DNA of 57,674 nt. Origin: Chloroflexota bacterium. GTDB lineage: Bacteria; Chloroflexota; UBA11872. The notes beneath the pieces are model-generated. The model had not been told where the DNA came from and searched no databases. It saw nothing but the letters and a program-made list of their open reading frames with translations. The first letter of the stretch is position 1. The number at the start of each line of letters is the position of its first letter. The stretch spans positions 1-57,674 of the forward strand of contig JAJDUU010000042.1 in NCBI GenBank assembly GCA_022826485.1. The letters run 5' to 3'. The translations under genes and the position numbers were made by a program. Shown piece by piece: positions 25,412 to 27,563 of the stretch.

Positions 25412-25876
25412 TCAGTCGGTCTCGGCCTCGCCGCCCGGCCAGGGCGGCCAGTTGCCGAAGGCCTTGGCGGTTCGGCCCGAGTAGGCCACGGCCAATGCGC
25501 CCCGGGCCTCATCGCCGATGCCTATGAGCATGCCGCTCGCCCGCCCGCCGGCGCTGATGGCGATGATGCCCTGCGCGTCGCCGCCGCTGATGGCGATGAT
25601 GCCGCTGGCCGAACCCGCGCCGATGGCAATGATGCCGACGGCGTTGAACAGGCTGACGGCGATCAGGCCGACGGCCACGATCGGACTTAGCGCGAACGTC
25701 CCAACCGCAACCACGTAGGCGAGCGCCGTCCCCTCGAAGACGGTCCCTTCCATGTCAACGACGCCGAACACACCGAGCAGGACGACGACGACCATGGCCA
25801 CCAGCACGCCCACCGTGGCCAGACCGGATATACCTCGCGCGACGTTGCCGACGGTCGCTTTGCCTGAATCCGTCAT
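25412..25876 (-). CDS. Membrane protein with 11-residue GIIAIS repeats
   Basis: 154 residues from ATG 25876, preceded by a perfect AGGAGGT site. Residues 18-40 and about 50-75 are hydrophobic helices. From residue 70 the protein has a regular repeat of about 11 residues with the pattern GIIAIS.GGA. (GIIAIGAGSAS, GIIAISGGDAQ, GIIAISAGGRAS, then GMLIGIGDEAR). Spacing and glycine content suggest a beta-solenoid or a series of packed turns rather than normal helices. The tail ends WPPWPGG. No family is recognised. The gene is divergent from glnA. Confidence 0.7.
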   Translation of the reverse strand: MTDSGKATVGNVARGISGLATVGVLVAMVVVVLLGVFGVVDMEGTVFEGTALAYVVAVGTFALSPIVAVGLIAVSLFNAVGIIAIGAGSASGIIAISGGDAQGIIAISAGGRASGMLIGIGDEARGALAVAYSGRTAKAFGNWPPWPGGEAETD

Positions 25877-25950: not shown

Positions 25951-25980
25951 TTGCAGAAGCGGCATGCCGCCGCCTACAAT
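25951..25980 (+). promoter_or_regulatory. Probable glnA promoter
   Basis: TTGCAG (25951-25956), an 18-base spacer and TACAAT (25975-25980). The -10 box matches the sigma-70 consensus at 5 of 6 positions; the -35 box is weaker. Transcription would start near 25987, giving a leader of about 134 bases before the glnA ATG. Confidence 0.5.
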
Positions 25981-26029
25981 CCAGGGCCGTCGATGGACGG
26001 TGTCCGCAAGGTGCCAGAGCTGGCGCCGC

Positions 26030-26076
26030 GGGCGGGATCGCGCCCATGCAGCGCTGCCGCTGCTGGGCGTTTTTTT
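26030..26076 (+). promoter_or_regulatory. glnA leader: intrinsic terminator with competing hairpin
   Basis: CGCCCA (26041-26046) and GCAGCG (26048-26053), separated by one bulged T, pair with CGCTGC (26058-26063) and TGGGCG (26064-26069). That is a 12-base stem on a CTGC loop, followed at once by seven T (26070-26076): a classic rho-independent terminator, 44 bases before the glnA start. GGGCG at 26030-26034 can instead pair with CGCCC at 26041-26045, destroying the terminator's lower stem. Two exclusive folds suggest control of glnA by transcription attenuation. No known glutamine-sensing aptamer is recognised upstream. Confidence 0.6.
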
Positions 26077-26120
26077 GTTTGGCCGAGCGCGCGGCGCCCG
26101 GCCAGGGAGGACAAGTCCAG

Positions 26121-27563
26121 ATGGCAGACGCCTCACAAGCAGACCTGGTGCAATCGGCCCTCCGCAAAGCGCGGGACGCCGACTGCAAGATCGTGGACGT
26201 GCGCTTTACCGATATCCCGGGCACGTGGCAGCACTTCTCCATTCCGCTGGACAAGCTGGACGAGGACGTGTTCGACGAGGGCCTGGGATTCGACGGATCG
26301 AGCGTGCGGGGGTTCCAGCAGATCCACGAAAGCGACATGCTGGTGATGCCCGACCCCACCACGGCGTTCGTGGACCCCACGCTGGAAGTGCCCACGCTGG
26401 TGCTCACGGGCAACATCAAGGATCCGGTGACCCGCGAGCCGTACACCCGCGACCCGCGGCACGTGGCGCAGAAGGCCGAGCGGCACCTCATCGACAGCGG
26501 CATCGCCGACGTGAGCTATTGGGGACCGGAAGCCGAATTCTTCATCCTCAACAGCGTCAGGTTCGATCAGAGCGCCCACGCGGCCTTCTACTTCATCGAC
26601 TCGGACGAGGGCATCTGGAACTCTGGCGCGGACGACGCGCACGCGCCGAACCTGGGGCACCGCCCGCTGCACAAGCGCGGCTATTTCCCGGTCCCGCCGA
26701 ACGACAAGCTGCAGGACCTGCGGTCGCGGATCACGCTGGCGCTGATGGATGTGGGCATCGACGTCGAGCTGCATCACCACGAGGTGGCGACCGCCGGCCA
26801 GGCCGAGATCGACATCCGCTACGGCCCGCTGACGAAGACCGCCGACCAGATGATGCTCTTCAAGTACATCATCAAGAACGTGGCGCGTCAGCACGGCTAC
26901 ACCGTGACGTTCATGCCCAAGCCGATCTTCGGCGACAACGGCTCAGGCATGCACGTGCACCAGAGCCTGTGGAAGGGCGGGGGCAACCTGTTCTACGACG
27001 CGGACGGCTACGCGATGTTGAGCGAGACGGCCCGGCACTACATCGGCGGCCTGCTGCGGCACGCCCCGGCGCTGCTGGCCTTCTGCGCGCCCACCACCAA
27101 CTCGTACCGGCGCCTGGTGCCGGGCTTCGAGGCGCCGGTGAACCTGGTGTACTCGCAGCGCAACCGGAGCGCCTGCGTGCGCATTCCGGCGTACTCACCC
27201 AGCCCGGCCGCGCGGCGCGTCGAGTTCCGCCCGCCCGACCCAAGCGCGAACCCGTACCTCGCGTTCGCGGCCATGCTGATGGCCGGTCTGGACGGCATCC
27301 GCAACCAGATCGAGCCCCCCGACCCGGTGGACCTCGACCTGTACGACCTGGAGCCCGAGGAGGCGGCCAAGGTGAAGTCGGTGCCCGGATCGCTCTACGA
27401 GGTGCTGGACGCGCTGGAAGCCGACAACGCATTCCTGCGAGAAGGCGGCGTGTTCACCCAGGACTTGATCGACACCTGGCTGGACTACAAGCGCACCGTC
27501 GAAGCGGACGAGGTGAACCTGCGGCCGCACCCGTATGAGTTCATGCTCTACTACGACGTGTAG
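26121..27563 (+). CDS. glnA: Glutamine synthetase, type I
   Basis: 480 residues from ATG 26121, after GGGAGG; an in-frame ATG at 26046 lies inside the terminator stem and is not the start. Makes glutamine from glutamate, ammonia and ATP. Seen are FDGSSVRGF near the N-terminus, [10 protein letters not shown], the ATP-binding [33 protein letters not shown] and [16 protein letters not shown]. Tyr408 in the DLYDL loop is at the site adenylylated in GSI-beta enzymes. Expression is probably controlled in the leader (26030-26076). It converges on the PSP1-like gene. Confidence 0.97.

Follow-up and report, generated by a model that had tools for sequence, protein, structure and literature searches.

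The locus examined here raises a single question: can a cell of this Chloroflexota bacterium still choose, once transcription is under way, whether glutamine synthetase is produced, and if so, what does the deciding? The initial annotation of the window, that is, of the whole 57.7-kb stretch of DNA analysed, placed a 12-base stem followed by seven T residues between a promoter-like site and the ribosome-binding site of glnA, and proposed that this terminator attenuates the gene. The stem and T tract are indeed found there, and the leader that contains them is laid out as follows.

25951..25980, + strand: promoter-like site; -35 TTGCAG (25951-25956), 18-bp spacer, -10 TACAAT (25975-25980)
25986..26001, + strand: P1 hairpin, loop GATG; predicted from the single sequence and by RNAalifold
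26002..26033, + strand: P2 hairpin; lower stem GTCCGC/GCGGGC, upper stem GGTGCC/GGCGCC, hexaloop AGAGCT (26016-26021)
26030..26045, + strand: competing hairpin of the initial annotation, GGGCG-GGATCG-CGCCC; foldable here, without covariation support
26041..26076, + strand: intrinsic terminator; 12-bp stem (26041-26069) and T7 (26070-26076)
26081..26103, + strand: hairpin GGCCGAGCGCGCGGCGCCCGGCC between terminator and ribosome-binding site; predicted by folding
26104..26110, + strand: ribosome-binding site AGGGAGG, read from the sequence
26121..27563, + strand: glnA, type I glutamine synthetase of 480 aa; TIGR00653, 655 bits against a cut-off of 429, and translation

For comparison, glnA upstream regions were collected from related genomes and oriented, yielding a family set of 19 leaders from two genera. 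The promoter-like site lies upstream of the terminator, where it was originally placed, and is conserved: TACAAT is unchanged in 19 of 19 family leaders, the -35 element is either TTGCAG or TAGACA at equal spacing, and the spacer measures 17-18 bases across the family, with little common sequence farther upstream. A transcription start would be expected at about 25984-25988, some 7 bases past TACAAT, placing P1 at the 5' end of the transcript; the P1 loop is GATG or GAAG (4 nt) in this genus and 7 nt long in the sister genus. At the other end of the leader, the region 26081-26103 is 94% identical within the genus and its GC-rich hairpin is kept through G-U/G-C changes, and this predicted structure might influence translation. 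The gene adjoining glnA upstream (window 25412-25876, - strand) is divergent and encodes a repetitive protein (GIIAISGGDAQGIIAISAGG...), and the gene neighbourhood upstream of glnA is not the same in other members of the genus.

The terminator stem, CGCCCA-(U)-GCAGCG-CUGC-CGCUGC-UGGGCG, comprises 12 pairs with one bulged U and a CUGC loop, and folds with -21.3 kcal/mol. When both strands of the 57.7-kb window were scanned, no second terminator near this quality emerged, and 528 kb sampled from this genome contained only about 4 convincing ones, a rarity that makes chance a poor explanation. Because the upstream gene is divergent, the terminator at 26041-26076 does not serve that gene.

Conservation extends to the leader as a whole. 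The promoter, P1 and P2 are present in all 19 family leaders and a good terminator in 17; identity within the genus is 94% for the leader, compared with 61% for the sequence upstream of it and 88% for the third codon positions of glnA. RNAalifold recovers P1, P2 and the terminator unprompted. Taken together, the P2 upper stem and terminator are 98.6% paired and contain 31 cells with double-sided changes, most of which fall on one branch, between the two genera, and thus represent few independent events; of five measures, three (the paired fraction, the number of double-changed cells and the score for covariation) lie above every one of 500 shuffles. Compensatory changes in the terminator stem occur at alignment columns 65-95, 70-90, 75-87 and 78-84, and the P2 upper stem is 100% paired among 17 distinct leaders, where both partners have changed in two of its pairs, while the register of the P2 lower stem differs between genera. 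The proposal that a leader terminator attenuates glnA is therefore well supported by the promoter upstream of it, the compensatory changes within its stem and its conservation throughout the family, and we consider it very probable that the leader attenuates glnA transcription.

Searched with a covariance model, each family genome gives one strong match, in every case before glnA (E values of 1e-9 to 1e-18), and none of 61 genomes gives a strong match away from the family glnA leaders; the model was trained on those same 19 leaders, so that only the lack of other strong matches constitutes independent information. This pattern bears on the suggestion that promoter, P1, P2 and terminator constitute a separate small-RNA gene roughly 90 nt long, with glnA fed by leaky read-through or by a promoter of its own. 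The unit is self-complete from promoter to terminator, and the sister genus has a TATATA-like box downstream of the terminator, both of which speak for this suggestion. We nevertheless regard it as improbable, since the unit sits at glnA in all 19 genomes and never elsewhere, no -10-like box lies past the terminator in this genus, and two leaders keep P1 and P2 even though their terminator has decayed (L019) or has an interrupted U tract and is poor (L020). Given these two leaders, in which the region concerned lies at about 1340-1450, P1 and P2 may act without the terminator; the loss of terminator quality there also weighs against the ANTAR-controlled attenuator discussed below.

How might an attenuator of this kind be switched? 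The initial annotation pointed to a competing hairpin, in which GGGCG (26030-26034) pairs with CGCCC (26041-26045) at the terminator base. That pairing can form here (-9.2 kcal/mol) but finds no support outside the genus: it is mismatched in the congener L007, can be drawn in the sister genus only with a bulge and a long loop, with a penalty of 14.6 kcal/mol when that state is enforced, and displays no double-sided changes, with 70.6% of cells paired, the level seen in shuffles. The covariance analysis proposed along with it thus upheld the terminator stem, with its compensatory changes, and not the GGGCG stem, and a conserved GGGCG antiterminator was rejected on the lack of covariation and the poor sister-genus energy. 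The P2 lower stem was likewise considered as a sequestering strand and set aside; its consensus register is not the best-folding register in this genus, and hence no sequestering role is claimed for it.

Even in this genus the terminator fold is favoured over the competing state by 6.2 kcal/mol, and a default so strongly weighted toward termination is what would be expected of an unregulated, constitutive partial terminator that merely fixes glnA expression at a low level. A change in the promoter would achieve the same end, however, and the conservation of P1 and P2, with invariant loop letters in the latter, demands a reason that a constitutive terminator does not supply; we accordingly judge this explanation highly unlikely.

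Translation of the leader was another early suggestion. An ATG within the terminator stem (26046) shares the glnA frame in this genome, and no stop codon separates its frame from the gene, but it lies 75 nt from the glnA start in two congeners and 74 nt from it in the other four, leaving the ATG out of frame in four of six, and in the sister genus it is altered or missing. Control by leader translation is therefore unsupported, and leader-peptide attenuation through this ATG was rejected because the reading frame is not conserved among congeners.

The initial annotation recognised no known aptamer, and comparison with Rfam, including the glnA RNA and Downstream-peptide families, agrees: no match reached the gathering score in the window or in nine other related or comparison loci, the best sub-threshold match being isrK (15.6 bits versus 50). 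A glutamine riboswitch or other Rfam family was rejected on this basis. The annotation had also allowed for a different sensor, possibly a protein, and it is with this idea that the loop of P2 and the proteins of the genome accord.

Among the family leaders, position 1 of the P2 hexaloop is A in 18 of 19 and position 4 is G in 19 of 19, the other loop positions varying; the closing CC/GG pairs are invariant and most of the outer pairs vary. ANTAR proteins recognise hexaloops with precisely this A1 and G4 and are sensitive to the sequence of the closing pairs (PMC3369931), and the G4 base is flipped out and read directly by the protein (PMC8934654). The regulons of such proteins consist mostly of nitrogen-metabolism genes, glutamine synthase genes among them (PMC3369931). 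The agreement between the invariant letters of P2 and the published recognition letters is therefore counted in favour of an ANTAR reading. As this signature was spotted post hoc, and as many loop motifs are known, the assignment is held at only a little above an even chance.

The genome encodes a single ANTAR protein, a response regulator of the PdtaR/EutV type composed of a receiver and an ANTAR domain, whose nearest solved relatives are Rv1626 (195.6 bits) and EutV. Of the 11 EutV residues that the literature names as contacting RNA, mapped onto this protein through our own alignment, six are identical (R142, K143, K149, E160, M172, R175) and three conservatively replaced (K147R, Y164F, N173D). 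A single ANTAR protein is likewise encoded in 18 of the 19 family genomes; in the incomplete assembly of the remaining one, G010, the leader is kept and no ANTAR gene was found.

The leader departs from the published ANTAR architecture in two respects. Firstly, there is no second A1/G4 hexaloop: the P1 loop has 4 or 7 nt, and the GGATCG loop of the competing hairpin carries G1 and U4. Secondly, P2 ends at 26033 and the terminator begins at 26041, leaving the two without overlap; only the competing hairpin overlaps the terminator, and it is not conserved. The linker from P1 to the P2 upper stem, at about 6-10 nt, does fall within the 5-12 nt reported for eut and the 2-25 nt reported for actinobacteria, in which ANTAR targets are dual stem-loops (PMC8164766). 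By the published definition, then, the leader falls outside the canonical ANTAR elements and is not claimed as one of them; it would probably work like one. That a single A1/G4 hexaloop hairpin standing clear of the terminator suffices to control it, with glnA as the only recognised target and through either an RNA geometry of a new kind or direct action of the bound protein on RNA polymerase, is a tentative proposition.

It is also conceivable, though the case is the weaker one, that the attenuator answers to another sensor, either a different RNA-binding protein or the RNA itself responding to a metabolite, for instance glutamine or 2-oxoglutarate. The attenuator anatomy holds without any ANTAR protein, the canonical dual-hexaloop layout is absent, and many related genomes encode ANTAR proteins while lacking the CC-ANNGNN-GG motif at glnA, a finding counted against the ANTAR reading. 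Conversely, few unpaired letters are conserved between the genera, unlike in a small-molecule aptamer, no Rfam family matches, and the conserved letters of the P2 loop occupy exactly the ANTAR positions. On balance we incline slightly toward an attenuator controlled by the ANTAR protein through a non-canonical layout.

Further evidence on ANTAR control comes from beyond the family. A scan for the CC-ANNGNN-GG hairpin across all fetched glnA upstream regions matched 18 of the 19 family members; beyond them it matched a single genus (g4; L030 and L031) from a second family in the order and one unrelated locus, and the motif was absent at glnA from the fetched loci of the wider class and phylum. 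In the second-family genus, where a hairpin of this form has a shuffle P of about 0.009 for occurring anywhere in the leader, the loop lies 36 nt from the -10 element, compared with 35 and 39 nt in this family, and the hairpin forms with a probability of 0.96 in the first 70 nt, later pairings competing with it. Two other second-family members lack the motif: L021 has a terminator, and in G021 neither motif nor terminator was found. The glnA leaders L030, L031 and L021 (order relatives G020, G023 and G019) carry intrinsic terminators of unrelated sequence, and leader termination before glnA thus reaches beyond the family. An inverted repeat was also observed at L198:3926-3962 (- strand), where TCCGGGTGCAAGGCC...GGCCTTGCACCCGGA is perfect (-32.4 kcal/mol) and is followed by TTTCTTT.

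Two further genomes place ANTAR and glutamine synthetase genes side by side. In G050, of another Chloroflexota family (L175:1331-2062, G050:C382), an ANTAR response-regulator gene is followed by a terminator at about 1963-1997 and then by a glutamine synthetase gene, a junction that is likely an ANTAR-controlled attenuator without an obvious A1/G4 hexaloop. In G052 (L176:1199-1860 onward, G052:C23) the ANTAR gene lies directly upstream of the glutamine synthetase gene and is almost gapless with it, suggesting that the two genes probably form one operon. No A1/G4 hexaloop with a stem of at least five pairs was found near either junction. Two amtB genes and one glutamate synthase-type operon have neither a U-run terminator nor an A1/G4 hexaloop upstream; of the other glutamate synthase, the fetched stretch covers the gene interior alone, the leader lying outside it. 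A regulon of several such leaders was rejected, as the covariance model finds glnA alone and the amtB and glutamate synthase-type leaders lack the motif.

The mechanism that we favour, assembled from comparative sequence evidence, would operate as follows. RNA polymerase would start about 7 bases past TACAAT, synthesise P1 and P2 and, by default, halt at the strong terminator some 90 bases on. A regulator bound to the nascent P1/P2 region would allow read-through into glnA; this role would most likely fall to the one ANTAR response regulator that the genome encodes, which, once activated by a signal related to nitrogen, would read the CC-ANNGNN-GG hexaloop of P2. Termination in vivo, ANTAR binding, read-through as its effect and the nature of the signal are steps that we infer, and the sign may be the opposite, with binding favouring termination. 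In either case, the cell can probably choose after transcription onset whether to make glutamine synthetase.

The literature found describes neither ANTAR-target RNAs in Chloroflexota nor control of glutamine synthetase at the RNA level in these uncultured members of the phylum. The glutamine riboswitch of cyanobacteria (glnA RNA) and the Downstream-peptide RNA likewise exert control in cis over nitrogen assimilation genes, but differ in that the present leader matches no Rfam family and conserves little unpaired sequence. Classical terminator/antiterminator attenuators share the strong terminator between promoter and gene, whereas here the GGGCG:CGCCC pairing is foldable in this genus and no antiterminator conserved across genera was identified, although some other switch may exist. 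There is also a close resemblance to the ANTAR-target RNAs of the EutV/eut, NasR/nasF and AmiR/amiE leaders, with which this leader shares an A1/G4 hexaloop hairpin with conserved closing pairs, located just 5' of an intrinsic terminator ahead of a nitrogen gene, in a genome that encodes an ANTAR response regulator whose closest solved relative is PdtaR (Rv1626) of mycobacteria. The distance between first and second hairpins is similar to the published 5-12 nt; the differences are that only one A1/G4 hexaloop is present, that the first loop has 4 or 7 nt, and that P2 stands off the terminator. If the ANTAR reading is true, a widespread single ANTAR regulator would be tied to the central step of nitrogen assimilation, and the leader would be a naturally occurring case in which to test whether, as proposed in 2022, one hexaloop makes up the minimal ANTAR site (PMC8934654).
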